Below, one piece after another: positions 16,264 through 28,521 of a stretch of 46,566 nt of DNA. Source of the stretch: Actinomycetes bacterium (lineage in GTDB: Bacteria > Actinomycetota > Acidimicrobiia > Acidimicrobiales > Ilumatobacteraceae). The position numbers and the translations under genes are program-made. The DNA lies in NCBI GenBank assembly GCA_025359865.1, contig JANYDH010000064.1, forward strand, positions 1 through 46,566, written 5' to 3'. Below the pieces are notes generated by a model. The model had not been told where the DNA came from. It ran no database searches and was given only the letters and a program-made list of their open reading frames with translations. Every line of letters starts with the position of its first letter. Position 1 is the first letter of the stretch.

Positions 16264-17475
16264 TCAGCGAGTGGCTGCGGCAAGGGCGTCGATGATCTGG
16301 TCGATCTGCAGATCGGTGATGACGAGCGGGGGACAGAACGTGACGGAGTCGGCGTTGATCGCACGAGTGATCACTCCGTTGGCAAGCATCGCATCACGCA
16401 CGGTCATCGAGTTCTGATGGGGATGCAAGCCGGCGGCCCACATCGCGCCGACACCGCGGGCATGGTGGATCGTGCCGTCGGACGCCAGTGCCTCCAGGCC
16501 ATTGCGTAGGCGAGCACCAACGTGAGTGGCCCGCTCGACGAGACCTTCGCGGCGGATGATCGCCAGGTTGGCCAGACCCGCAGCGCACGCGGTCGGGTGT
16601 CCCGAGTATGTGAACCCATGGCGGAGGAAGAAGTCGGGGTCGGCCTCGAGCCCGGCACGAACAGCCGGCCCGACCAACACTCCTCCGAGGGGTTGGTACC
16701 CCGAAGTGACGGCCTTTGCGAACGTGACCATGTCGGGCCGCACATCGTAGTGGTGGGCGGCGAACCACGAACCGAGGCGTCCGAATCCGGTGATCACCTC
16801 ATCGAAGATGAGGAATGCGCCGTGCTGGTCGCACAACTTGCGCAGCGATGCCAAGTAGCCGTCCGTCGGGGGGTGGATGCCCCCGGCACCCTGCACGGGT
16901 TCGGTGAGCACAGCGGCGATCTCGTTGCCATGTTCGCTCATCAGCGTGGCCAGCGCTTCGATGTCGTCGGCCGGTACTTGCACCACGTCGCCGACGAATG
17001 GCCCGAAGTTCTCCCTGTTCGGAGCGATTCCCTGGGCGCTGGTGCCTCCGTAGGCAACGCCGTGATAGCCGCGTATGCGGGAGATGATCAGCTTGCGCTG
17101 CGGCTGCCCGGCCTGAACATGGGCGATGCGGGCCAGCTTCATCGCCGAGTCGATCGACTCGGATCCGGACGAGCAGAAGAACACCCGTGCATCGACCATC
17201 GGCGCAATCTCGTGTAACTCAGCGGCCAGTTGTTCGGCAGGTTCGTTGGTGAACGGGTCGAAACAGCTGTAGGCCTCGAGCTGGAGCATCTGCCGAGAGA
17301 CTGCATCGGCCATCTCTGCCCGGCCATGGCCGATCGCGCAGTACCACAAGCTGGCCATGCCGTCGACCAGCGCGTTGCCGTCGGCGTCCCACACCATGGC
17401 ACCGTCGCCCCGAACGATCCGGATGAACGACTCGCGAGTCGGCTTGGCAAAGGGATGCAGAAAGGCAGATGGCAC
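16264..17475 (-). CDS. Class III aminotransferase (omega-amino acid/DAPA type)
   Basis: A PLP fold-type I aminotransferase of 403 residues. It shows DGMASLWYCAIGHG, the cofactor-phosphate loop CSSGSESIDSAMKLAR, YHGVAYGG, the PLP-nitrogen aspartate in FDEVITGFGRLG, and the Schiff-base lysine in TFAKAVTSGYQPLGG. The SLWY and GFGRLG forms resemble beta-alanine:pyruvate/omega-aminotransferases and DAPA aminotransferase; no biotin genes lie nearby, so an omega-aminotransferase is likelier. It is somewhat short (relatives are 430-460), mostly at the N-terminus. The GTG at 17475 follows a reverse-strand TACCGT by 7 nt. Confidence 0.87.
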   Translation of the reverse strand: MPSAFLHPFAKPTRESFIRIVRGDGAMVWDADGNALVDGMASLWYCAIGHGRAEMADAVSRQMLQLEAYSCFDPFTNEPAEQLAAELHEIAPMVDARVFFCSSGSESIDSAMKLARIAHVQAGQPQRKLIISRIRGYHGVAYGGTSAQGIAPNRENFGPFVGDVVQVPADDIEALATLMSEHGNEIAAVLTEPVQGAGGIHPPTDGYLASLRKLCDQHGAFLIFDEVITGFGRLGSWFAAHHYDVRPDMVTFAKAVTSGYQPLGGVLVGPAVRAGLEADPDFFLRHGFTYSGHPTACAAGLANLAIIRREGLVERATHVGARLRNGLEALASDGTIHHARGVGAMWAAGLHPHQNSMTVRDAMLANGVITRAINADSVTFCPPLVITDLQIDQIIDALAAATR

Positions 17476-17482
17476 AACAGCG

Positions 17483-17488
17483 ACGGTA
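17483..17488 (-). promoter_or_regulatory. -10 box TACCGT of the aminotransferase gene
   Basis: On the reverse strand TACCGT ends 7 nt before the GTG at 17475. It lies next to the 8-bp tandem repeat at 17503-17533, which would overlap the region upstream of this -10 box. Confidence 0.5.
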
Positions 17489-17502
17489 CCGCCTTAGCGT
17501 AT

Positions 17503-17533
17503 CGGCTACTCGGCTACTCGGCTACTCGGCTAC
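17503..17533. repeat. 8-bp tandem repeat (CGGCTACT, about 3.9 units)
   Basis: CGGCTACT is repeated head to tail three times and followed by CGGCTAC. It sits in the divergent promoter region between the aminotransferase and the PknG operon, about 40 bp upstream of the operon's -10 box and 15 bp upstream of the aminotransferase -10 box. Changes in copy number could alter promoter spacing. Confidence 0.9.
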
Positions 17534-17574
17534 GACATCCGCACACCAGCGGTCGTACCCGTTGCCATATCGCC

Positions 17575-17580
17575 TACACT
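17575..17580 (+). promoter_or_regulatory. -10 box TACACT of the PknG-type operon
   Basis: TACACT ends 9 nt before the ATG at 17590, giving a leaderless or nearly leaderless mRNA. It is the only promoter-like site seen ahead of the seven tightly packed genes to 26452. No good -35 match was found. Confidence 0.4.
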
Positions 17581-17589
17581 GGCCCGACG

Positions 17590-18915
17590 ATGCAGCGGCT
17601 CGGAACCACGGCAACCACGCCCAGCGGTGAACCCGCTGTGTCGCTCGCCTCGCGGTTGGGTCGCGCGCTCTCGTGGAAGTCTGCGGAATCGCCAACACGG
17701 CTCAAGGCGGTCATTGCCGTCACGGTGGTGCTTGCCGCGCTGCTGTCACTCGGCGGGTGGTACTCGGTCGACCGGCGGGCGAATGCCATCGACGATGCTG
17801 CCGCGGCCGCCGAGCAGCTGATCCAGGTGCAAGATGTACGGGTGCTCGCAGTGCAGGCCGACGCGATCGCCTCGAACGCGTACCTTGCCGTCGGGCAAGA
17901 AACCACGGCACAGCGCGCTGAATACGACGACCGGATTGCAGGTGTCGCCACCGGACTCGTTCGGGTGTCGCAAGCAGCCACCATCATCGATGCCGTGTTG
18001 CTGCGACAGGCCAACGCCCACTTCAGCACCTACGTGGGACTCGTCGAGCAGGCTCGGGCCAACAACCGACAGGGGTTCCCGGTCGGAGCGGCGTACCAGA
18101 AGCAGGCTCGCGAGGTGAGCAGACAGTTGGTCGATGATTTGCGCCAGGTGGAGTCGAACTCTCGGGAAGGCGTCGACGCAAGCATGGAACGCGCCCACCG
18201 CGCCAGTTGGGCGCTCGCCGTTGCTGCATTGTTGTTGTTCGCCGCACTGGTCGTGGGATGCCTGTGGTTGGCGCTGCGGTGGCGACGGCTCTTCAACGTG
18301 CCGCTCGCGATCGCCACGATTATCACGCTCACCGTGCTCACCGTTGGATTGGGTGTCAACGCCAACGCGATAGGAACCGCAGACGATGTGGTCACCGGGC
18401 CGTTGTCCACCGCCGACCTGGTGGCCCAGGCCCGAGCGGCGGGCTTCGATGCCAGGTCGAACGAGGCGCTCACGCTCATCGCTCGTGGTAACGGTGCCGA
18501 CTACCAGATCGGCTGGCAGCGTGCCTCCAACATTGTCGACACAGCGTTGGGCGCGGCCTGTAGCCAGTTCGGCGAGGGCTGCTCGGCGATCGACGCCTAT
18601 CGCGGGTACACGGGCACCCACGAGGCAATCCGTGAGCTCGACGAGGGAGGCAACTGGGACGCTGCCGTACAGCTCGCGACCACCGGGTCGAGTCCCGATG
18701 CCCCAACCGGCACCGACGATCCGAACGTCACCTTCGATCAGTTCGCCGCCGACACTGGCCTCGTGGTCGAGGCCCAATCGAGCTTGGCGGCGATCGGCTT
18801 CAGCGATGCCGTCTCGTCCTTGGGTGCGCTTCGGCTGTTCATGCTCCTCGCCGGCGCCGCCGTGGCGATCCTCGCGGTCATCGGGTACGGCCAGCGAATC
18901 AAGGAGTACCGGTGA
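17590..18915 (+). CDS. glnX: GlnX-like four-helix membrane sensor of the PknG operon
   Basis: A 441-residue membrane protein with four predicted transmembrane segments at about 39-58, 207-230, 237-258 and 414-434. They leave two extracytoplasmic helical domains (about 59-206 and 259-413), each Ala/Gln-rich like sensor four-helix bundles. This topology and the position before a GlnH-like lipoprotein and a PknG-like kinase match mycobacterial GlnX, which relays GlnH-bound amino acid status across the membrane to PknG. There is no kinase, HAMP or other cytoplasmic domain, so the signal must pass by protein contact. The ATG at 17590 follows a -10 box; the reading frame is open further upstream but crosses the tandem repeat. 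Its TGA overlaps the next GTG. The assignment rests on context and topology more than on motifs. Confidence 0.75.
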   Translation: MQRLGTTATTPSGEPAVSLASRLGRALSWKSAESPTRLKAVIAVTVVLAALLSLGGWYSVDRRANAIDDAAAAAEQLIQVQDVRVLAVQADAIASNAYLAVGQETTAQRAEYDDRIAGVATGLVRVSQAATIIDAVLLRQANAHFSTYVGLVEQARANNRQGFPVGAAYQKQAREVSRQLVDDLRQVESNSREGVDASMERAHRASWALAVAALLLFAALVVGCLWLALRWRRLFNVPLAIATIITLTVLTVGLGVNANAIGTADDVVTGPLSTADLVAQARAAGFDARSNEALTLIARGNGADYQIGWQRASNIVDTALGAACSQFGEGCSAIDAYRGYTGTHEAIRELDEGGNWDAAVQLATTGSSPDAPTGTDDPNVTFDQFAADTGLVVEAQSSLAAIGFSDAVSSLGALRLFMLLAGAAVAILAVIGYGQRIKEYR

Positions 18916-19973
18916 ACCTGCTCCACAGTCACTCAGCACCAGAGCGACCTGGCCGTGCGCGTCGTACGCGTCGTGCCGTTCACGGCGTGTTGGCGGCAGG
19001 TGTCGCGCTGTTGGTGGCGGCCTGCTCTGGGTCGGCGACCCTGCCGAGCGAGATCACCGGCGGTGTCGCCACCACTGAGGCGCCTTCCACCCCTGCGCCG
19101 AGGGAGTGTACCCCCGCTCAGAATTCGCAGGAGGATGCCACCCGGTCGTACCCGAGGCTCGACCCGCTTCCGGCACCGGCGAACTTGCCCGCTGGTTCGA
19201 CGATGGCGGCGATTCGTCAGAGCGGTCGCCTACGCGTGGGCGTCTCGGCCGACACATTGCTGTTCGGGGCGCGCAACGCGCTCACTGGGCAGATCGAGGG
19301 CTTCGACATCGACATGCTGAAGGAGGTCGCCAAGGCAATCTTCGGTCCTGACGGCGCTGCCAAGATCGAGTTCCACGTCATCCGCTACGACCAGCGTCTG
19401 CCACAACTCGAGGCCAACGATGTCGACATCGTGGCTCACACGATGACGATCAACTGCAAGCGGTGGTTGCGCATCGCATTCTCCACCGAGTACTTCCATG
19501 CGGGCCAGAAGGTGTTGGTCAAGAAGGGCTCCGGCTTCACCGAGGTCGAAGATCTGGTCGTCGCTGCCGCCACTGTGTGTGCGCCCGAGGGCAGTACCAA
19601 CATCGACGAGATCACCAAACCGGAGTACACCGGCATCGTCGTGGTCGGCAAGGCCGACATCAGCGATTGTCTCGTCGCGATGCAACAAGGCGATGTCGAC
19701 GCGATCACCGGTGACGACACGGTCCTGGCCGGCTTTGCCGCCCAGGACCCGAGCACCGAGGTGGTCGGCCGACAGTTCACCGGCGAGCCGTACGGACTGG
19801 GGATGAATGCCAAGGCCGTCGACTTCGTGCAGTTCGTCAACGCCGTGTTGGCCGACGTGCGTACGTCGGGACGATGGGGCGAGATCTACAAGACCTGGCT
19901 GATCGATACCGGGGCGTTGCAAGGCACGGTGATCGACCCGCCCGTGCCAAACGAGCAGCGGCCGGCGCCATGA
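18912..19973 (+). CDS. glnH: GlnH-like amino-acid-binding lipoprotein
   Basis: A periplasmic solute-binding protein (SBP_bac_3 family) of 353 residues. The lipoprotein signal ends LLVAAC with C38 as the lipidation site, followed by a Thr/Pro-rich tether. The binding domain starts near residue 98 with RLRVGVSADTLLFG and has GFDIDMLKEVAKAIFG, ANDVDIVAHTMTIN, RIAFSTEYFHAGQKVLV and a C-terminal SGRWGEIYKTWL. No ABC permease or ATPase is adjacent, so it looks like a sensor and not a transporter component. In mycobacteria the corresponding GlnH binds aspartate and glutamate and controls PknG. The GTG start has AAGGAG (18901-18906) 5 nt upstream and overlaps the GlnX stop. Confidence 0.88.
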   Translation: MNLLHSHSAPERPGRARRTRRAVHGVLAAGVALLVAACSGSATLPSEITGGVATTEAPSTPAPRECTPAQNSQEDATRSYPRLDPLPAPANLPAGSTMAAIRQSGRLRVGVSADTLLFGARNALTGQIEGFDIDMLKEVAKAIFGPDGAAKIEFHVIRYDQRLPQLEANDVDIVAHTMTINCKRWLRIAFSTEYFHAGQKVLVKKGSGFTEVEDLVVAAATVCAPEGSTNIDEITKPEYTGIVVVGKADISDCLVAMQQGDVDAITGDDTVLAGFAAQDPSTEVVGRQFTGEPYGLGMNAKAVDFVQFVNAVLADVRTSGRWGEIYKTWLIDTGALQGTVIDPPVPNEQRPAP

Positions 19974-21052
19974 GCACCACGGGAGCTGCCCAGCGGGCTG
20001 GCGAGGTGCTCGCCCAGTGGGACGACTGGTCTGCGCGTTGTACCGACCAACTGTTCGATCTCGACACGCGTGCCACATCGGTCGGAACCGACGCGGATCG
20101 TTTGGATGTCGCCGCAGCGTTTCTCTGCCGCAAGGCGATCTTCGATCGAATCGAACAGTTGCGGGTCGCTGTTCAGCGGGGCGGCAGCGATGTGGCTGCG
20201 CTGTCCACTCGTCCACTCGTCGACGGTCAGGGCGGCCTCGTGGCCGACAACTTGTCCAGCGCCGCAAACCTGGTCGATGCCATCATTGCCAAGGTCGACC
20301 AGCGGCTCACGGCCATCGAGCAGGCTGACGCGACGGTCGAACGGTCGGTTGTAGCTATTGTCCACGACCTGGCCGAAGCCGACCGATTGGTCGAGCAACT
20401 CGGTATACACGCAGGCCGGGTTGCGAAGTTGCATACACGAGCAGCTACCACCGACCGCACAGCGGTATCGCTGACCGCTTTGGCGACCGACGTGATGTCG
20501 ATGGTGACCGTGCTTCGATCCGCCGACAGCGACCGGTTGCGGATCGTTGCCGCGTTGCCCGGTATCCCGGCGAAGCTGGAGCAACTCGTTGCACGCGAGG
20601 TGGCGGTACGAGCCGTCGTCGCCCGGTGCCGCGACAAGGTGTTGCCGCTGCCCAATCTTGCGGTTCCAGCCGTGGCCGCGATCGAACCGCTGGATGCCGC
20701 TGTTGTGTTGTCGTCCATGCCATGGCCGGCCGCATTCGCGAAACTTCAGCCGTATCTCGATCGACTCGACCGCCTTGGTGCTGCGCTGGACGAGGTCGAT
20801 CGCCGGTTCTCCCTCGTGTTGTCCCGTCGAGATGACTTACGTGGTCTTCTGCAGGCATACCGTGACAAGGCGGGGGCCCATGGCCTTGCCGAGGATCCGC
20901 TGCTCGAGCCCGCCTACCGGGTCGCCGAGGCGGTGTTGTGGTCCGCGCCGTGCAACGTCGACGTAGCCGAGCCGCTGGTGGATGTGTACACCGACGCCGT
21001 CAACAACGCCGTCGTGTTGCGTTCGACGCCGCGAGACTCAGGAGAACGCTGA
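19970..21052 (+). CDS. Uncharacterised helical protein between GlnH and PknG
   Basis: A 360-residue soluble protein with no signal peptide, transmembrane segment or recognisable enzyme motif. It is almost wholly helical by composition, rich in Ala, Val, Leu, Asp and Arg, with heptad-like stretches at about 85-150 (NLVDAIIAKVDQRLTAIEQ) and 255-310 (LQPYLDRLDRLGAALDEVD), so coiled coils or helical bundles are likely. Its start overlaps the glnH stop (ATGA) and its TGA shares a base with the pknG ATG (TGATG), so it is locked into the signalling operon between sensor and kinase. It could be an adaptor linking GlnX to the kinase or a kinase substrate; this is inference from position. Confidence 0.75.
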   Translation: MSTTGAAQRAGEVLAQWDDWSARCTDQLFDLDTRATSVGTDADRLDVAAAFLCRKAIFDRIEQLRVAVQRGGSDVAALSTRPLVDGQGGLVADNLSSAANLVDAIIAKVDQRLTAIEQADATVERSVVAIVHDLAEADRLVEQLGIHAGRVAKLHTRAATTDRTAVSLTALATDVMSMVTVLRSADSDRLRIVAALPGIPAKLEQLVAREVAVRAVVARCRDKVLPLPNLAVPAVAAIEPLDAAVVLSSMPWPAAFAKLQPYLDRLDRLGAALDEVDRRFSLVLSRRDDLRGLLQAYRDKAGAHGLAEDPLLEPAYRVAEAVLWSAPCNVDVAEPLVDVYTDAVNNAVVLRSTPRDSGER

Positions 21053-23289
21053 TGCACTGTGTGCAACCCGGCTGCGGCGGTTCGATCGCCGACGGATACT
21101 GCGACGTGTGCGGCCTTGCCGCGGACAGCCCCGCCGCTCGCGTAGTAGCGGCAAGTGGGCGCTCGGCTGAGTCGGGTTCGCCGCGCTCTACGCGTGCTAG
21201 TTCGGTCACCAATCGGCTCGGTACGGTGCCGCTCGGTTCGGCGCGTTCCACCACTGCGAGTCGCGCCACCAAGCGGCTCGATCGGCAACGTGGCGTGTCA
21301 CGTCTCGGTGCCGGTCTCACCGAGATTCCGTCGGTGCCGATTCTCGACCCGCGCCAGGCGTTGATGGATCCGGCGGTGGTTTCCGAAGAGAAGCGGTTCT
21401 GTTCGGTCTGCCAGAGCGTCGTCGGGAGAGCCCGCGACGGCTCACCCGGGCGTACGAAGGGGTTCTGCCCGAAGTGCCGCACCCCGTTCGATTTCGAGCC
21501 GAAGCTGACCGCCGGGACGATGTTGGGTGGGCAGTACGAAATCATGGGTTGTCTCGCCCACGGCGGCATGGGCTGGATCTATCTCGCGCGTGACCGCAAT
21601 GTAAACGACCGGTGGGTGGTCGTAAAGGGATTACTCAACGCCGGTGATCCCGATGCGTACCGTGCCGCGGTAGCCGAAAAGCAGTTCTTGGCAGAAGTGG
21701 AACATCCGATCATCGTCGAGATCTACAACTTCGTCGCCGGAGCGGACGGCTCGTCGTACATCGTCATGGAATACGTCGGTGGACAGTCGTTGAACAACTT
21801 GTTGAAGTCTCGGATGAAGGCGGCCAGTGGGCGCTTTTCGCCGCTGCCGCTCGATCAAGCGGTCGCGTTCATGATCGAGGTCCTGCCGGCGTTTTCGTAC
21901 CTCCACGGGTTGGGCTTGCTCTACTGCGACTTCAAGCCAGCCAACGTGATTCAAGTCGGAGATGGCATCAAGCTGATCGACCTCGGCGGCGTACGCCGCA
22001 TCGACGATGATGCATCACCGATTTACGGCACGGTTGGATTCCAGGCCCCAGAGGTGGCAACTGATGGCACGTCAGTCCCGAGCGACCTGTACACCATCGC
22101 CCGCACGCTCGCCGTGCTGGTGTTCGAGTTCCGGGGCTACCAGAACCAGTACGTCGATTCACTACCGCCGCCCGACGAAGCACCGATCCTGGCCGAGCAC
22201 GACTCGCTGTACCGACTGCTGCAGAGGGGCACCGCACTTCGACCCGAAGACCGGTTCCAGACGGCCGAGGAGATGCGCGTGCAACTACTCGGTGTGCTGC
22301 GCGAGATTGCTGCACACGACAGCAAAGGCGACGTCACCCGCAGCACACCCTCGTCGATCTTCGACGCGCCGACTGTGGCCAGTGATCGTCTGGATTGGCA
22401 CGACCTTCCCCGGTTGGGGCCCGATGTCGATGATCCGTTACACGCCTGGCTGCAGAGCGTCACCACCGATGATCCCGTAACCCGTCGTCAGTTATTGGAC
22501 GGAGCGCCGGGTAGCAGCGTGGGACTGTCGATCGAGATCGGTTACGCCGATCTCGCCCTCGGCCACTGCGACGCGGTCGACGCGACGGCCCGTGCCCTCT
22601 TGCAGGCCGACCCGTGGGAGTGGCGGGCGGTGTGGATGCAGGGTTTGGCGGCACTCCAGACCGGTCGTGCCGGCGACGCCGTGGGGGCGTTCAACACGGT
22701 CTACGGTCAACTGCCTGGTGAGCTGGCCCCGAAGCTCGCTCTGGCGCTCGCATGTGAGCAGTCTGGCGACCTCGATGTAGCCGAGCGCACCTACGCCGTC
22801 TGCGCTCGAAGTGATGCTGCCTATGTAGCGGCAGCCCAGTTCGGGTTGGCACGAGTGGCAGCAGCGGGTGGTCGACGCGGTGATGCACTCGCCGCACTCG
22901 ACCGCATTCCCACTACCAGCCGCGCCTATGGCGACTCACGTCGCAAGCGTGCATTGATCCTCGCCGCGGCCGACGGGGCTATCCATCGTCTCGTCGATCT
23001 GGACGCAGCTGCCCACGAACTCGAACAGGCAACCATGGACGAGGCACAGCGCGCCCAGGTACGTGTACAGATCTACGAGTCTGCACTGCGCCAGGTGCTG
23101 TCGGCCGGCTCCGGTTCGGCGGGTCCAGACGGTGACGGCACGGTCGGGGGGGTTGCCGCGAGCGAAGTGCCACTGCGGCGGGCCCTCGAACGTGCATACC
23201 GCGCAGCTGCTACGTACCAGAGTGATCGAACGGCGCGGGTGCAGCTTGTTGACCTTGCCAATCAGGTGAGGACGAGAACGCTCACATGA
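21052..23289 (+). CDS. pknG: PknG-like serine/threonine protein kinase
   Basis: A soluble kinase of 745 residues, close to mycobacterial PknG (750). In order: an N-terminal zinc ribbon (CVQPGCGG...YCDVCG, about 3-20), a Ser/Thr/Arg-rich linker, a rubredoxin-like module with C117, C120, C139 and C142, the kinase domain (about 160-430) and a TPR-like helical C-terminus (about 445-745). Kinase motifs are CLAHGGMGWIYLARD, catalytic K192, YCDFKPANVI with catalytic D293, and DLG (D310) in place of DFG. HRD replaced by YCD and the CLAHGG loop are PknG hallmarks. PknG is regulated by its rubredoxin and TPR domains and controls glutamate metabolism through an FHA protein. AGGAG (21040-21044) precedes the ATG. 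The TGA overlaps the PP2C start. Confidence 0.95.
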   Translation: MHCVQPGCGGSIADGYCDVCGLAADSPAARVVAASGRSAESGSPRSTRASSVTNRLGTVPLGSARSTTASRATKRLDRQRGVSRLGAGLTEIPSVPILDPRQALMDPAVVSEEKRFCSVCQSVVGRARDGSPGRTKGFCPKCRTPFDFEPKLTAGTMLGGQYEIMGCLAHGGMGWIYLARDRNVNDRWVVVKGLLNAGDPDAYRAAVAEKQFLAEVEHPIIVEIYNFVAGADGSSYIVMEYVGGQSLNNLLKSRMKAASGRFSPLPLDQAVAFMIEVLPAFSYLHGLGLLYCDFKPANVIQVGDGIKLIDLGGVRRIDDDASPIYGTVGFQAPEVATDGTSVPSDLYTIARTLAVLVFEFRGYQNQYVDSLPPPDEAPILAEHDSLYRLLQRGTALRPEDRFQTAEEMRVQLLGVLREIAAHDSKGDVTRSTPSSIFDAPTVASDRLDWHDLPRLGPDVDDPLHAWLQSVTTDDPVTRRQLLDGAPGSSVGLSIEIGYADLALGHCDAVDATARALLQADPWEWRAVWMQGLAALQTGRAGDAVGAFNTVYGQLPGELAPKLALALACEQSGDLDVAERTYAVCARSDAAYVAAAQFGLARVAAAGGRRGDALAALDRIPTTSRAYGDSRRKRALILAAADGAIHRLVDLDAAAHELEQATMDEAQRAQVRVQIYESALRQVLSAGSGSAGPDGDGTVGGVAASEVPLRRALERAYRAAATYQSDRTARVQLVDLANQVRTRTLT

Positions 23290-24395
23290 GTTCCACGGGG
23301 GTGGGTGACGTGGCCTGCCCGCAGTGCGGCGCCGCCATCGCATCAGGCGACACCTTTTGCGAGGCGTGCGGTACCGCGCTGGTCGCCGACGCGGTGGCTG
23401 CGGCTGCGGTCGCTGCGGTCTTGGCTGCTGCTGCGGCGCCGGTCGATCCGGACCGGGCTGGCGCGGGAGCCAACGTGTCGGTGCCGGGACCGTGCGTGGT
23501 GTGCGGCGGCGTGATCGACGACGACGGGTTCTGTGGTACGTGCGGTCAGAAGGCTCGCACCGAGCGCGATCACTGGATTGAATCGCCGGCAGTCTGGGTT
23601 GGAGGAGTGTGCGACAAGGGCATCGTTCATTCCGGTAACGAAGATGCGATGGCGTTGGCCGCCACGCCGTTCGGTGACCGAACCGATGCGCGTGCGGTGC
23701 TCGTGGTCTGCGACGGCGTCACCTCTGCTCCACACAGCGACCGCGCGAGCATCGCCGCGGTTCGTGCTGCGTGCGCTGCGCTGGTAGCTGCGCCACCGCC
23801 CGCAGCCGATGATCCGTTTCCGGCCCAACTCGATCACTGGCAACGCCACCTCGGTGTCGCGTGCGCCGCCGCAAACGTTGAAGCGGTCGCCGTGGCGCGC
23901 GTGTTGGGTGATCCGCCCGAGCCTCCATCGTGCACCTTCGTAGCAGCCATCGTGGCGCAGCACCTGGTGTCTGTTGCCTGGTGCGGCGACTCGCGGGCCT
24001 ACTGGATTCCTGATGCGGGCGAGGGCGAGGAACTCTCCACCGATCACTCGATCGGCACTGAACTCATGCGTGCCGGTGCCACCCGCGAGATCGCAGAAGC
24101 CGACCCCGCATCTCACACGATCACCAGGTGGCTCGGGGCCGACTCGGTCGATCCCACGCCCGAGTACGTCACCCGCCGCCTCGATGACGCCGGATGGGTG
24201 GTGGTGTGTTCTGACGGAATGTGGAACTACGCGTCCACGCCGCAGGCACTTGGGGCGCTGCTCACGGAGGCCGGGGCCGATGGGGCCACCGGTCCAACAG
24301 CGCTGGCGGAATCGTTGGCCGCATGGGCAAACGATCAGGGTGGCCACGACAACATCACCGTCGCCCTTGCCCGTCACGAGCGCCAAGTACCATGA
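23286..24395 (+). CDS. PP2C-type Ser/Thr phosphatase with two zinc ribbons
   Basis: A 369-residue metal-dependent phosphatase likely to oppose the neighbouring kinase. Two zinc ribbons come first: CPQCG...CEACG (about 11-29) and CVVCG...CGTCG (about 70-87), separated by an Ala-rich linker. The PP2C domain (about 105-365) keeps the metal and catalytic motifs GNEDAMA, VVCDGVTSAP, CGDSRAY, CSDGMWNY and GGHDNITV. The start overlaps the pknG stop (ATGA). Mycobacteria have PstP elsewhere in the genome and not in the pknG locus, so a dedicated operon phosphatase is a notable difference. The zinc ribbons resemble those of PknG and the FHA protein and could dock the partners together (inference). Confidence 0.92.
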   Translation: MSSTGVGDVACPQCGAAIASGDTFCEACGTALVADAVAAAAVAAVLAAAAAPVDPDRAGAGANVSVPGPCVVCGGVIDDDGFCGTCGQKARTERDHWIESPAVWVGGVCDKGIVHSGNEDAMALAATPFGDRTDARAVLVVCDGVTSAPHSDRASIAAVRAACAALVAAPPPAADDPFPAQLDHWQRHLGVACAAANVEAVAVARVLGDPPEPPSCTFVAAIVAQHLVSVAWCGDSRAYWIPDAGEGEELSTDHSIGTELMRAGATREIAEADPASHTITRWLGADSVDPTPEYVTRRLDDAGWVVVCSDGMWNYASTPQALGALLTEAGADGATGPTALAESLAAWANDQGGHDNITVALARHERQVP

Positions 24396-24425
24396 CCGAC
24401 ACGTCAAACCGAGTGGAGGAGACGC

Positions 24426-25706
24426 GTGGCTGAGTTCACCGCCGAGGTTTTCCAGAATGAGTACCTGAGTGATGGCGCGACCGATGTTCACGCTGTCGTG
24501 TCGATCACCTGCTCGGGCGCCGGCGTAGCGGGCCAAACCGGCTCTGGCGAGGCGGCCGAGGTCATCATCATCGACACATCAGGCTCGATGGACATGCCCC
24601 CCAACAAGATCGCTTCGGCACGTCGAGCGGCCAAGGCTGCGTTGAACGAATTGATCGACGGCACGTGGTTCGCTGTCGTTTCGGGCCACAGTTTGGCGCA
24701 GATGGTTTATCCCACACATCCCGGACTTGCCCGGTCGAGCGAGGTCACCCGTGGCGAGGCCGGCGCGGCAATCGATCGACTACGCAGTGGCGGCGCAACA
24801 GCGATCGGCAGTTGGATCGACGCAGCGACGGAGTTGTTCCAGCAGGCGCCATCGAGTCAGCGGCACGCGATTCTGCTGACGGACGGCAAGATCGAAGGCG
24901 AGGCTTCCGGAGCACTTGACGAGGCGCTCCAGCGCGCGCGAGGGGTGTTCCAATGCGACTGCCGCGGCGTTGGCGACGGTTGGGTGGTCAGCGAGTTGCG
25001 CAAGATCGCCGACACCCTGCTGGGTACGGTCGACATCATCGCCAGCCCGGAAGATCTCGAGGCAGATTTCGAGTCGATGATCCGTACCTCAATGAGCCGT
25101 GGCGTTGCCGATGCACGATTGCGGGTGTGGGCTCCGCAGGGCAGTCAGGTGATGTTCGTCCGTCAGGTCGCGCCAACCGTGGAAGATCTCACTCCGCGGG
25201 CAGTGCAGATCAGCCCGCTGGTCGTCGAGTTCCCCACCGGGGGGTGGAGCGACGAGTCACGCGACTACCACGTCGCCGTCAGGGTGCCGGCAGCGCCAGT
25301 TGGTAACGAACGTCTCGCGGCTCGGGTCGAAACTGTGGTCAACGATCAGGTACTGGCAAAGGCGTTGGTCAAGGCGATCTGGAGCATCGACACCGACCTC
25401 ACCACCCGCATCGACCCGGCGGTTGCCCACTACACCGGCCAGGCGCAATTGGCCGATGTCATCCAGCGCGGTCTCGCCGCAAAGTCCGCTGGTGATGATC
25501 GTACGGCCACGGTGTTGTTGGGCGAGGCCGCGAAGTTGGCCCATGACAGTGGCAACGAGTCCACCACCCGGCTGCTGGCCAAGGTCGTCGACGTGGTCGA
25601 TGTCGATGCGGGCACCGTACGCCTGAAGGCCAAGATCGACAAGAGTGACGAGATGGCGCTCGATACCCGGTCGACCAAGACCACGCGGGTCAACCGTCAG
25701 CCATGA
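24426..25706 (+). CDS. von Willebrand factor A domain protein of the PknG operon
   Basis: A 426-residue cytoplasmic protein with a vWA domain from about 40 to 220. The metal-ion-dependent adhesion site is complete: DTSGSM (D50-M55), GGATAIGSWI supplying the threonine, and LLTDGK supplying the aspartate. A beta-rich middle (about 230-320) and helical C-terminus (about 325-426, AQLADVIQRGLAAKSAGDD) follow, as in vWA proteins linked to Ser/Thr kinase systems. The GTG start has GGAGGAG (24415-24421) 4 nt upstream. A 13-codon frame starting in the PP2C overlap (24392) ends just inside this gene and may help coupling. Its stop overlaps the FHA gene start. It may be a metal-dependent scaffold or a kinase substrate. 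Confidence 0.9.
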   Translation: MAEFTAEVFQNEYLSDGATDVHAVVSITCSGAGVAGQTGSGEAAEVIIIDTSGSMDMPPNKIASARRAAKAALNELIDGTWFAVVSGHSLAQMVYPTHPGLARSSEVTRGEAGAAIDRLRSGGATAIGSWIDAATELFQQAPSSQRHAILLTDGKIEGEASGALDEALQRARGVFQCDCRGVGDGWVVSELRKIADTLLGTVDIIASPEDLEADFESMIRTSMSRGVADARLRVWAPQGSQVMFVRQVAPTVEDLTPRAVQISPLVVEFPTGGWSDESRDYHVAVRVPAAPVGNERLAARVETVVNDQVLAKALVKAIWSIDTDLTTRIDPAVAHYTGQAQLADVIQRGLAAKSAGDDRTATVLLGEAAKLAHDSGNESTTRLLAKVVDVVDVDAGTVRLKAKIDKSDEMALDTRSTKTTRVNRQP

Positions 25707-26452
25707 GTACGGTCGCCTGCCCGAACGGCCACCAGTCCGGCGATCCAGAGTGGTGCGACACATGCGGTGCCCCCATCGGCGGGCCATCAGCGGCCGACCC
25801 CGCGGCCGCCTCGCTCCCCGCCGGCTCGACACCGGCGACGTCTACCCCGGCCACGTCTACCCCGGCCACGTCTTTTGGTGTCGCCGGTGCTGTTGCACCC
25901 GTTGCCTGCCCGCATTGCGGGGCGATGAACAGCGCGGACAACTTGTTCTGCGAGTCGTGCGGCTACGACTTCACGACGGGCCAGACGCCCGATCCGGTGG
26001 TTGTTGCGGGTCCCGTGGCGGTCGATCCGAGTGCGGCACCCGTCGAGGCCGCTGGGTCACCGTGGATCGTCGTTGTCGAGGTCGATCCCGGATGGTTCGC
26101 GCTCAAGGGTGAGCTGGCCGGTGAGGCGTGTCCGCCACCGTCTACGTTCACCGTGACCATCAGCGGTCATGCGTCATTGATCGGGCGCACCAGTCAGTCG
26201 CAGGCGCTGCATCCGGAGCTAGCGCTCGACAACGACACAGCCGTGTCACGGCGCCATGCCCAACTGGTGATCGATGGGCCGGTGCTGAGCGTGGTCGATC
26301 TCTCGTCGACCAATGGTACGTACGTACACACAGCAGCCGAGCAGCCATCCGATGCCTCGCAGCCGCTCGCGTCGGGAGTGGCCACGGTGCTGCGCGATGG
26401 TGACCGTGTGTACGTGGGTGCATGGTCGCGTCTCACCGTGCGCGCCGGTTGA
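25703..26452 (+). CDS. FHA-domain protein with two zinc ribbons
   Basis: A 249-residue phosphothreonine-reading protein. Two zinc ribbons, CPNGH...CDTCG (about 6-22) and CPHCG...CESCG (about 69-87), flank a linker of three five-residue repeats (STPAT-type). The FHA domain (about 150-245) has SLIGRTSQ, SRRHAQLVI and DLSSTNGTYV, so the phosphate-binding Arg, Ser and Asn are present. In mycobacteria PknG acts on the FHA protein GarA through an N-terminal ETTS motif; no such motif is visible here, so it is a positional rather than proven GarA counterpart. Threonines in the linker repeats are possible kinase sites. The start overlaps the vWA stop (ATGA). It is the last operon gene and a palindrome follows 18 bp downstream. 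Confidence 0.9.
   Translation: MSTVACPNGHQSGDPEWCDTCGAPIGGPSAADPAAASLPAGSTPATSTPATSTPATSFGVAGAVAPVACPHCGAMNSADNLFCESCGYDFTTGQTPDPVVVAGPVAVDPSAAPVEAAGSPWIVVVEVDPGWFALKGELAGEACPPPSTFTVTISGHASLIGRTSQSQALHPELALDNDTAVSRRHAQLVIDGPVLSVVDLSSTNGTYVHTAAEQPSDASQPLASGVATVLRDGDRVYVGAWSRLTVRAG
25826..25870 (+). repeat. 15-bp in-frame tandem repeat in the FHA gene
   Basis: Two identical units TCTACCCCGGCCACG (25841-25855, 25856-25870) are preceded by a diverged unit (25826-25840). They encode a Thr/Pro/Ser linker repeat. Because the unit is a multiple of three, copy changes would lengthen the linker without breaking the frame. Confidence 0.9.
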
Positions 26453-26470
26453 CTTCGGTCACCCCGGACT

Positions 26471-26510
26471 TTTGGCGTTGGGCTGTCATTGACAACAACC
26501 CAACGCCAAA
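26471..26510. terminator. Dispersed palindromic repeat, copy C, behind the PknG operon
   Basis: TTTGGCGTTGGG (26471-26482) pairs perfectly with CCCAACGCCAAA (26499-26510) around a 16-nt loop that can pair partly. It starts 18 bp after the FHA stop codon, so it can serve as a terminator although no T-run follows. Its arms match copies A, B and D. Confidence 0.65.
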
Positions 26511-26720
26511 GCTCAGCCCTCGTGTTGAGTTGGAGCGCCGGATGCGTTCGCTCACGGTGCCGCGTTGTGATCGTCGGCGGGCTGAGGTGGTGTGACGCGC
26601 GGCAGAGGGCAGTCGGGCAAGGCGATCTCGGAGTTGATTGGGATGTCGGAACAATCGGTGTGTACGTGGTGGCTGGGGTTCTGGTCTCCGCCGTGGCGAG
26701 TTCGAATCGTTGATCTTGGT

Positions 26721-26770
26721 GACACGTGGAGGCACGTGTTGTTACGTAGGCACACGTGCCTCCACGTGTC
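26721..26770. repeat. Perfect 19-bp inverted repeat with CACGTG cores
   Basis: GACACGTGGAGGCACGTGT (26721-26739) pairs perfectly with its complement at 26752-26770 around a 12-nt loop. Each arm contains two CACGTG or ACGTGG-type elements, so the arms are themselves repetitive. It is a strong hairpin, 270 bp after the FHA gene, and could be a second terminator, a mobile-element end or a protein-binding site. Confidence 0.9.
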
Positions 26771-26868
26771 GATCGCTTGTGGCGACGAACCCGTGGCCGA
26801 GATGATCAAATTCGCCGAGCACTCATACACCATTCACATCGGTGAGGTCGGGTCGGGATGCCGCCACA

Positions 26869-26920
26869 CCCCACCCGCAATTTGCGACAGCCTGTTGGCA
26901 ACAGCCCAACGCCAAAGGTC
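26869..26920 (+). repeat. Dispersed intergenic repeat, copy D
   Basis: It matches copy A (72-123) at 42 of 52 positions with no gap, and its last 19 bases, CAGCCCAACGCCAAAGGTC, are identical to the right arm region of copy B. CTGTTGGCAACAG within it is a small palindrome. Confidence 0.8.
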
Positions 26921-27054
26921 GGGCTCGTACTGCGTCGCGTGAGAGGTAGTCGATTTGGCGTCGTCTCGTGGTTCGGTGATGATCGCTGCGGCGGGGTCGA
27001 CGTGACCGGCTCACCACATCTCAGCTTTGGACCCTCGAGCCCAAACCAGAAGCT

Positions 27055-27095
27055 CTGTGAGTTTGCGGCAGTCCAGCCGTCACTGAAACTCACGG
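27055..27095 (-). terminator. Stem-loop behind mycothione reductase
   Basis: GTGAGTTT (27057-27064) pairs with AAACTCAC (27086-27093), and inside it CGGC (27066-27069) pairs with GCCG (27076-27079). It begins about 47 bp past the reverse-strand mtr stop. There is no T-run, which is common in high-GC actinobacteria. Confidence 0.5.
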
Positions 27096-27141
27096 ACCGG
27101 TTGGTTTGTGAGGTGGATCTCATGACGGTGCTTGACTGCGG

Positions 27142-28521
27142 TCAGCGCGGCGGAAACCCCAGGAGGGCGTTCTCGACCAACTCACCGAGAGCCGGGTGGA
27201 TGTAGTACTGGCCCGACCCCAGTTCATCGATGGTGTGGCCAAACCGCATTCCCTGCACGAGTTGCTGGATCAGGCTTGATGCCTGTGGGCCGATGATGTG
27301 GGCGCCGACCAGCTTGCGGGTCGCGCGGTCGGCGATCAGTTTGCAGAAGCTGGTGGTGTCTTCGAGCGCCCAGCCGTATGCGATGTCGCCGTAGCGCTGC
27401 ATCGACACCATCACGTCGATGCCGGCAGAGCGGGCCTCCATCTCGGTGAAGCCCACAGCGGCAATTTGCGGGTTGGTGAACACCGCGTGCGGAACGACCG
27501 TGTGGTCGGTGAAGCGCAGATCGTCGGGGTGGCTGATGTTGTGTGCCACCACTCGCGCCTCGTGGTTGGCGACATGCTTGAGCATGTATGGCGAGCTGAT
27601 GTCGCCGAGCGCCCACACGCCGGGCACGCTGGTGCGCTGTGCGTGGTCGGCGATGATCCGACCGTCAGCGTGCAGGTCCAACCCGCCTGCGCTCGCGTCG
27701 ATGAGGTCAGCGTTGGGGATTCGGCCCGTCGCGACCAGCAGATGGCTGCCGGTCACCGTTGTTCCATCGGCGAGCAGCACGCGCACACCGCCGTCTGAGG
27801 TGGCGGAGACCCGTTCGATGTGGCTACCTGTTCGTACGTCGAACCGCCGAGCGAAGCTGGCCGTGATCGCTGCTGATACGTCGTGGTCCTCGGCCTTCAG
27901 GAGGTTCATGCCGCGTTGAATCATGGTCACCTGAGCGCCGAGCGCACCGAACACGTGGGCGAGTTCGCAGGCGATGAAGCCGCCACCGATCACGATGAGG
28001 TGCTGGGGTACCTGCTCGATGCGCATGATGTCGTCGCTGGTGTGAACCGTGACGTCGCCGATACCGGGCAGGTCGGGGATCATCGGTCGGGCGCCCGCTG
28101 CTACCACCACCTGTCGACCTTCGATCAGCGCTTCGTGTCCACCTTCGCCGTGCACGACGAACTGGCGCGGCGCGATGAACTTCGCATGCCCGCGGTGAAC
28201 AGTAACGTTGGTGCAGTCGACGGCTCGGTACCGCTCGCCGCCGACAGCAATCGGGTCGATCCGGCCGAACACACGGCCCCGAATCGCTGGCCAGTCCACA
28301 ATGTCGAGCTGGGCACTGATGCCGTAGCGGCCCGAATGCCGGATCACGTCGGCCACATCGGCGGTGTGGACGAACATCTTGGTGGGGATGCATCCGCGGT
28401 TCATACAGGTCCCACCGAAATCCCACTCCTCGATCATCGCGATCGACCAGTCGTCGTGAGCGGGACCGATGACCGAATTGCCGCTGCCGGCGCCCAGGAT
28501 GACGAGATCGTACTTCTGCAT
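27142..28521 (-). CDS. mtr: Mycothione reductase
   Basis: A FAD/NADPH disulfide reductase of 459 residues that reduces mycothiol disulfide, the actinobacterial counterpart of glutathione reductase. The FAD motif is ILGAGSGNSVIG; the redox pair C39 and C44 lies in GGTCMNRGCIPTKMF; the NAD(P)H motif is VIGGGFIACELAHVFGALG; FALGDISS-type WALGDISSPYMLKHVANHE and the C-terminal HPALGELVENALLG complete the fold. AGSGNSV, FGRIDPIA and SSPYLLKHVANHEARV-like stretches match mycobacterial Mtr better than lipoamide dehydrogenase. It shows that the organism makes mycothiol, and so is an actinobacterium. The ATG at 28521 follows a TACCGT box by 7 nt. Confidence 0.92.
   Translation of the reverse strand: MQKYDLVILGAGSGNSVIGPAHDDWSIAMIEEWDFGGTCMNRGCIPTKMFVHTADVADVIRHSGRYGISAQLDIVDWPAIRGRVFGRIDPIAVGGERYRAVDCTNVTVHRGHAKFIAPRQFVVHGEGGHEALIEGRQVVVAAGARPMIPDLPGIGDVTVHTSDDIMRIEQVPQHLIVIGGGFIACELAHVFGALGAQVTMIQRGMNLLKAEDHDVSAAITASFARRFDVRTGSHIERVSATSDGGVRVLLADGTTVTGSHLLVATGRIPNADLIDASAGGLDLHADGRIIADHAQRTSVPGVWALGDISSPYMLKHVANHEARVVAHNISHPDDLRFTDHTVVPHAVFTNPQIAAVGFTEMEARSAGIDVMVSMQRYGDIAYGWALEDTTSFCKLIADRATRKLVGAHIIGPQASSLIQQLVQGMRFGHTIDELGSGQYYIHPALGELVENALLGFPPR

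Follow-up and report, generated by a model that had tools for sequence, protein, structure and literature searches.

What does the kinase PknG act on when its gene stands between those of an amino-acid receptor and those of a phosphatase, a vWA protein and an FHA protein? The question is raised by a seven-gene operon on contig JANYDH010000064.1 (assembly GCA_025359865.1) from an Actinomycetes bacterium of the Ilumatobacteraceae; the stretch analysed, positions 1 to 46,566 of the forward strand (46,566 nucleotides), is called the window throughout. PknG signalling is treated as a three-gene operon plus GarA in PMC6069109, PMC8546545 and PMC9769921. We read the operon as an amino-acid-controlled phosphorylation switch, in which PknG would act on the vWA protein at its C-terminal tail, the FHA protein would bind there and the PP2C phosphatase would reverse the step; we put the probability of this reading at roughly 55%. 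The genes, together with the codons of the tail, are placed as follows.

17590..18915, + strand: GlnX-family membrane receptor (NF058618; about four membrane-spanning stretches by hydropathy)
18912..19973, + strand: GlnH-type amino-acid-binding lipoprotein (SBP_bac_3; GlnH 6h2t; VAAC lipobox; pocket residues)
19970..21052, + strand: HEL, a conserved helical protein without known family (all-helical model; conserved position)
21052..23289, + strand: PknG-type kinase with Cys4 N-terminus, rubredoxin, kinase and TPR parts (PF16919, PF00069, PF16918; 2pzi)
23286..24395, + strand: PP2C phosphatase with two N-terminal zinc ribbons (PF13672, DZR; metal-binding motifs)
24426..25706, + strand: three-domain vWA protein, ArnB-like by its model, with a conserved Thr-rich C-terminus (VWA_3, VWA_3_C; ArnB 8s05_B)
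25653..25694, + strand: codons of vWA residues 410-423, holding the conserved LDTRSTKTTRV tail (conservation rank 1 of 415 windows)
25703..26452, + strand: zinc-ribbon/FHA protein, built like ArnA as judged from its sequence (DZR, FHA; phosphothreonine-binding residues)

An earlier note, made from the sequence alone, had described this series of GlnX, GlnH, HEL, PknG, PP2C, vWA and FHA genes with start-stop overlaps at five of six junctions. All seven frames were found as placed, at 17590-26452 on the + strand, and the overlaps are there, with sizes of 4, 4, 1, 4 and 4 bases; the sole gap, 30 bases long, is at the PP2C/vWA junction. Longer candidates stand in the program-made list of open reading frames for GlnX (from 17230), HEL (from 19874) and PknG (from 20938), and the starts adopted for these three genes are the ATGs at 17590, 19970 and 21052. 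The motifs of the kinase, the phosphatase, the metal-ion-dependent adhesion site (MIDAS) and the FHA domain are all present in the window proteins.

The reading follows the logic of an archaeal system. In Sulfolobus, the kinase ArnC places phosphates on the helical C-terminal domain of ArnB, the FHA domain of ArnA then binds and PP2A reverses the step, in a process that follows nutrient state (PMC6509490, PMC7472852, PMC12852372). Phosphorylation of ArnB at Thr353, which lies in an SIETT motif, occurs within 5 min, and the T353A/T354A change weakens ArnA pull-down at short phosphorylation times (PMC12852372). The vWA protein of the operon, which carries VWA_3 and VWA_3_C domains, was modelled (pLDDT 88) with its vWA domain set within a beta-sandwich and with a helical C-terminal part, and its MIDAS is intact (D50, S52, S54, T125 and D153, all invariant). 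The best structural match of the model was 4fx5, an actinobacterial protein (Z 51.3, 49% identity, full length). ArnB from the ArnAB complex (8s05_B) aligned over all three domains (Z 31.7, root-mean-square deviation 3.3, 364 aligned residues, 14% identity) and the ArnB paralogue 5a8j over 351 residues (Z 27.1); the rows after 5a8j scored Z 24.2 or less, and most of them spanned about the vWA domain alone. As modelled, the vWA protein has an ArnB-like fold.

Its tail is strongly conserved. Residues 410-421 rank first of 415 windows of 12 residues, with a mean identity of 0.972 versus 0.736 for the whole protein (33 sequences). Relatives were collected by scanning named genomes with the vWA alignment, which gave at least 582 vWA-family matches; the best 80 of these were used, a sample in which close relatives are over-represented and one locus (L121) is apparently on the same contig as another (L055), and which includes Nocardioides, Kribbella, Cellulomonas, Terrabacter, Kineosporia, Rathayibacter and a Streptomyces. 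The tail motif L-D-T-x-S-T-K/R-T was found in 80 of these 80 loci and, with D or E allowed at the second place, in 13 of the 13 rows of the first alignment, the window included. Directly 3' of the vWA gene lies that of the FHA protein, in which zinc ribbons (DZR) are joined to an FHA domain that retains its phosphothreonine-binding residues. When a whole-protein profile was built from 19 such FHA partners, ArnA was the best solved match (E 4.2e-13 and 8.1e-13), ahead of GarA (5.8e-9); the sequence comparison indicates that the FHA partner shares ArnA's build.

Linkage of the genes points the same way. Among the 80 loci, 65 had at least 8.3 kb before the vWA gene, and the 15 with less were left out. 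Gene order around pknG, compared in this way across actinobacteria, recurs more than chance: all seven genes stand in order in 54 of the 65, seven others are without GlnH only (counted as missing when none reached 80 bits; GlnX has diverged in some of these), and four are split, three of them (L134, L193 and L196) by metabolic or DNA-polymerase genes. In a set of 198 genomes spread across the phylum, PknG_TPR was matched in 14, namely 13 with GlnX over the curated cut-off plus the window genome (226 versus 250 bits), and VWA_3_C in nine, all among those 14. Loosening the GlnX cut-off to E 0.001 gave 24 of 198 genomes, the extra matches being partial and weak. Of the 13 other GlnX regions in this set, seven carry all seven genes in the same order and on the same strand (HEL in L030 being a short frame), one (L041) carries all seven, but its GlnX-GlnH pair is read from the other strand than the remaining genes, and five have glnX-glnH-pknG alone. 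Within the window's own class, GlnX was found at E 1e-20 or better in 10 of 296 genomes, the window genome included; regions were covered for eight of the nine others (G404 was left out), of which four have all seven genes, one (L053) has GlnX-GlnH alone and three are cut by contig ends. The locus is thus patchy in its own class and not unique.

A set of 216 actinomycete genomes came from the class of G193, a genome taken as Streptomyces-type ("Streptomyces-type", family f26, and "mycobacterial-type", family f31, are labels that we inferred from gene content and genome size). PknG_TPR was matched in 64 of the 216, VWA_3_C in 45 and both in 41; of the 52 VWA_3_C matches, 38 have PknG_TPR on the same strand no more than 10 kb away, as do 29 of 29 outside one family (f116). 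Taken together, the patterns in the named loci and in the 216 genomes mark PP2C-vWA-FHA as the tightest unit and GlnH as the part most often missing. The earlier note had also proposed a self-contained signalling module with parts that the mycobacterial locus does not have. The latter claim is borne out, the mycobacterial-type locus being the shorter glnX-glnH-pknG form; as for the module, a conserved locus does unite receptor, kinase, phosphatase and phospho-reader, but its seven-gene form is widespread and not special to this genome, given the at least 582 vWA relatives.

How the parts would work together can be set out step by step. The GlnH lipoprotein would bind an amino acid outside the membrane and signal via GlnX to cytoplasmic PknG, the route that genetics and binding data have suggested in the relatives from mycobacteria and corynebacteria. 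HEL may connect GlnX with PknG or with PknG partners, which is the weakest step of the scheme. Active PknG would phosphorylate threonines of the vWA C-terminal tail; the zinc-ribbon/FHA protein, perhaps loosely held beforehand via a ribbon, would then lock on through its FHA domain, and PP2C would strip the phosphates and loosen the vWA-FHA complex. The scheme would amount to the archaeal ArnA-ArnB/ArnC/PP2A logic placed under an amino-acid receptor, and GarA, encoded elsewhere in the genome, could be a second PknG target.

The GlnX protein of the window aligns with positions 2-413 of the 413 of NF058618 (E 8.7e-67) at 226 bits, below the curated cut-off of 250; untruncated GlnX matches within the window's class range from 178 to 320 bits. 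GlnH has an SBP_bac_3 match and a VAAC lipobox, and matches GlnH 6h2t at E 4.9e-52. The side-chain contacts of GlnH with aspartate or glutamate are Arg147, Thr162 and Trp232, with Lys161 acting via water (PMC6069109). In that numbering, Arg147, Thr162, Arg169 and Asp250 are kept in the window protein, where Ser164 is replaced by Thr, Trp232 by Ile and Lys161 by His. Arg147, Arg169 and Asp250 are each found in 56 of 57 sequences (56 from named loci, plus the window) and in all 19 of a further 19, and Ser164 is replaced by Thr in most sequences. Position 232 is Trp only in five mycobacterial-type loci, Ile in the window, Gln in seven Streptomyces-type loci and His in 39 of the 57. The sensing of aspartate or glutamate, cited for mycobacteria in the earlier note, is therefore not transferable unchecked: most pocket residues are kept, but Trp232 is replaced by Ile and Lys161 by His. 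It is a fair guess from these residues that the ligand is some amino acid, aspartate itself not being established. Seven loci (L154, L165, L171, L176, L178, L195 and L197), some from Propionibacteriaceae, have a GlnX-like gene and no clear GlnH, so the receptor may operate without GlnH. The GlnX-GlnH pair of L053 has no PknG or other partner within the next 10 kb.

HEL matched no Pfam or NCBIfam model. Its structural model consists of long helices throughout (pLDDT 95), and a Foldseek fold search had no match with E of 0.001 or lower; EzrA, which heads the VIA rows with Z 11.7, scores no higher than is usual for helical models, and no function is claimed from it. In 61 of the 65 named loci its gene stands after the receptor genes and before PknG, which makes HEL a conserved part of the unit and, because of that placement, probably a connector. 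PknG itself matches PF16919 (PknG_rubred), PF00069 (Pkinase) and PF16918 (PknG_TPR) above cut-off and 2pzi at E 4e-124, and its N-terminus is rich in Ser and Thr. In a Streptomyces-type genome, a second PknG_TPR match (L026/L075, G161:C26:50376-52015) is directly followed by a weak, partial GlnX-like match. The phosphatase combines PP2C_2 (PF13672) with DZR zinc ribbons and retains the metal-binding motifs. A degenerate phosphatase, suggested by the want of the arginine usual before NED, was considered; that place is His in 12 of 13 aligned rows, the window included, and Lys in L054, the other motifs are intact, and the change was not taken as inactivating.

Several observations weigh against a phosphorylation switch of the Arn kind. 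On the structural side, the three-domain build is common to the inter-alpha-inhibitor heavy chain (Z 24.0, 332 aligned residues) and, by Foldseek, partly to Sec23/24, and the vWA sequence profile matches ArnB solely in the vWA domain (45-217, E 2.3e-6). The kinship of the FHA protein is narrower than its build suggests: in a control search with the FHA domain alone, ArnA was tied with the FHA domain of plant KAPP and with GarA (E 1.8e-9 to 3.2e-9), and with the window protein as single query GarA came first and ArnA eleventh. A special kinship of the FHA domain with ArnA was thus not borne out, and the lead of ArnA in the whole-protein profile stems from the ribbon and linker. As to the tail, its first threonine is not universal, the sequence being LDVVSTKTVRA in 4fx5 and LDAGSTLTVPA in a PknG-linked copy (L213), with S-T-x-T kept in both. 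The model has a helix at residues 406-415, and the alignment with 4fx5 runs to model residue 422, so the tail need not be disordered and its conservation may be structural. Its resemblance to ETTS of GarA and to SIETT/LIETT of ArnB was spotted post hoc and is a lead, not a test. In PP2C, the window protein alone has Gly just before NED, where the 12 other aligned rows have Arg.

Two further points of this kind come from the archaeal work: pairwise Thr-to-Ala changes in ArnB had no effect on motility (PMC6509490), and ArnB-like proteins elsewhere are described as "mostly not" in multi-phosphorylation processes (PMC12852372). Arguing from gene context, the actinobacterial vWA family may nonetheless take part in such processes. 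That context has its own exceptions, since 14 of the 52 VWA_3_C matches in the 216 genomes are not near PknG_TPR, all 14 in family f116. Seven of these 14 regions were examined. In five, from one actinomycete family (L206-L210), PP2C, vWA and FHA stand together with no PknG_TPR match nearby; L208 has a diverged PknG-like and HEL-like pair upstream of them, and in L209 and L210 the vWA match lies within a short frame. The other two (L211 and L212) have PP2C and FHA with no vWA match. One genome (G509) has both a PP2C-vWA-FHA set away from PknG and a PknG-linked copy, L213, whose tail has diverged.

The rival that survives best is that GarA is the real output of PknG here, the FHA protein docking on autophosphorylated PknG while PP2C, vWA and FHA do no more than adjust or position the kinase; we regard this as possible, with odds of rather less than one in four. 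The window genome does encode, elsewhere, a GarA orthologue (127 bits) in a gcvH-garA-merR setting (gene names by reading of the region) and an oxoglutarate dehydrogenase (a 1238-residue frame), and an FHA substrate docks on the phosphorylated N-terminus of PknG in mycobacteria and Corynebacterium (PMC8546545); the N-terminus of the window kinase is rich in Ser and Thr. ETTS is the PknG site in GarA/OdhI (PMC8546545); the window GarA has DHTITL in its place. All of the 34 genomes examined gave a GarA-family match (E 1e-15 or better; three over the curated cut-off), including 16 that have no PknG_TPR match, so GarA is not tied to PknG, whereas the vWA family in these samples mostly is; the invariance of the vWA tail motif across the named loci also stands against GarA as the real output. 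Among 30 GarA loci, three of mycobacterial type have ETTS and no ribbon, four of Streptomyces type have a ribbon and ETTS, and the window has a ribbon and DHTITL. An N-terminal Cys4 ribbon was seen on the window-genome GarA (L060:3426-4037, G000:C4) and on the GarA proteins of the non-mycobacterial genomes covered, and resembles that of the operon FHA protein. Reading ETTS in GarA as a mark of loss of the vWA pair was dropped, as Streptomyces-type genomes have both. Nor was the operon FHA protein itself taken as GarA/OdhI: it scores 28.6 bits against NF041660 (cut-off 200), has no ETTS, and the GarA orthologue lies elsewhere in the genome.

An improbable rival is a kinase-PP2C-vWA module of the TerY-P kind, serving stress, metal or defence, to which the amino-acid receptor is one adopted input. 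TerY-P triads join vWA, PP2C and a Ser/Thr kinase with a zinc ribbon (PMC11090510), an actinobacterial kinase-PP2C-vWA set has been reported (PMC7159879), and PP2C-vWA-FHA sets away from PknG exist; against this stand the close linkage with GlnX, a vWA build that is ArnB's, and the PADLOC search of the operon proteins, which gave no vWA or FHA match. A defence system was rejected on the same search, whose hits were generic kinase matches (PD-T4-6, mad6) and one weak match to a phosphatase. Just as doubtful is a vWA/FHA pair that serves as a peptide- or protein-binding scaffold, assembles independently of phosphorylation and shares the operon for expression timing: ArnB-like builds without phosphorylation are common and the unphosphorylated ArnA ribbon binds ArnB (PMC12852372), but the FHA protein keeps its phosphothreonine-binding residues, and in most loci the pair has genes for a kinase and a phosphatase next to it.

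No sigma-70-type promoter was found in 17400-27200 (1.0 expected by chance), a scan that neither proves nor disproves a single transcript, and the one terminator-like site in that range, inside PP2C (4.6 expected), is silent on the matter. A strong hairpin lies 3' of FHA at 26471-26510 (z -3.04), yet the terminator scan had no match there; a second, related arm is at 26901-26923 (region 26464-26923), and a perfect 19-base inverted repeat spans 26721-26770. Just before the GlnX start, TCGGCTAC is repeated four times in tandem (17502-17533). A class-III aminotransferase gene adjoins the operon (16264-17475) and another lies inside the split locus L196 (5458-6819), possibly by coincidence.

There is a broader and more tentative view, to which we give clearly less than even odds: that the older and wider output of PknG is an ArnA-ArnB-type vWA-FHA switch, sharing its build with an archaeal starvation switch, and not GarA, that mycobacteria lost the pair and the phosphatase and rely on GarA, and that in the full form the locked or loose state of the complex depends on amino acids outside the cell. 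Model organisms would then display only a trimmed PknG pathway. If the wider form does include a dedicated phosphatase and a pair of the ArnA/ArnB kind, a large share of the pathway's output in soil actinobacteria and antibiotic producers would have been overlooked. Bacteria would also have a counterpart of the archaeal nutrient switch for which the receptor, the kinase and the phosphatase are known by name. The ArnB/ArnA-like build predicted for the last two products is the most useful addition, giving a concrete, testable mechanism. The seven-gene unit was not found in the open-licence literature searched, and we class the operon as a variant form of GlnH-GlnX-PknG signalling whose output, in the literature searched, was not found linked with PknG; new here are the gene context of the 4FX5-type vWA protein, the ArnA-like build of its partner and the conserved tail.

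Among known systems, type VI secretion has a threonine-phosphorylation pathway, PpkA-PppA-Fha, with a kinase, a phosphatase and an FHA protein. Its kinase and vWA parts are arranged differently from those of the operon, the PpkA kinase itself carrying a vWA domain (PMC1262709); no type VI genes were noticed in the window, and none were searched for. The TerY-P triad, likened to the operon by description alone, encodes the same three activities together and, as described in the excerpts of PMC11090510, has no receptor or FHA protein. The Catenulispora acidiphila protein 4FX5 (Caci_2163) matches the operon vWA protein over its full length; it is a solved structure with the tail LDVVSTKTVRA, its likeness to ArnB was already noted in PMC6509490 and PMC12852372, and the excerpts of those papers assign it no role; it would gain a testable gene context if the wider form of the operon is as described. 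GlnH-GlnX-PknG-GarA/OdhI of mycobacteria and Corynebacterium glutamicum shares with the operon the order of GlnX, GlnH and PknG and a GarA orthologue encoded elsewhere; the operon differs in adding HEL between GlnH and PknG and PP2C-vWA-FHA after PknG, in Ile at GlnH position 232 and in a GarA without ETTS. Archaeal ArnA-ArnB resembles the operon in that the genes of its three-domain vWA protein and its zinc-ribbon/FHA protein adjoin, that the C-terminus of the vWA protein is rich in Thr, and that a kinase and a phosphatase belong to the system; the operon is bacterial, its vWA protein is 14% identical structurally and its FHA domain is not specifically ArnA-like, and it has PknG in place of ArnC, PP2C in place of PP2A and, in addition, an amino-acid receptor.

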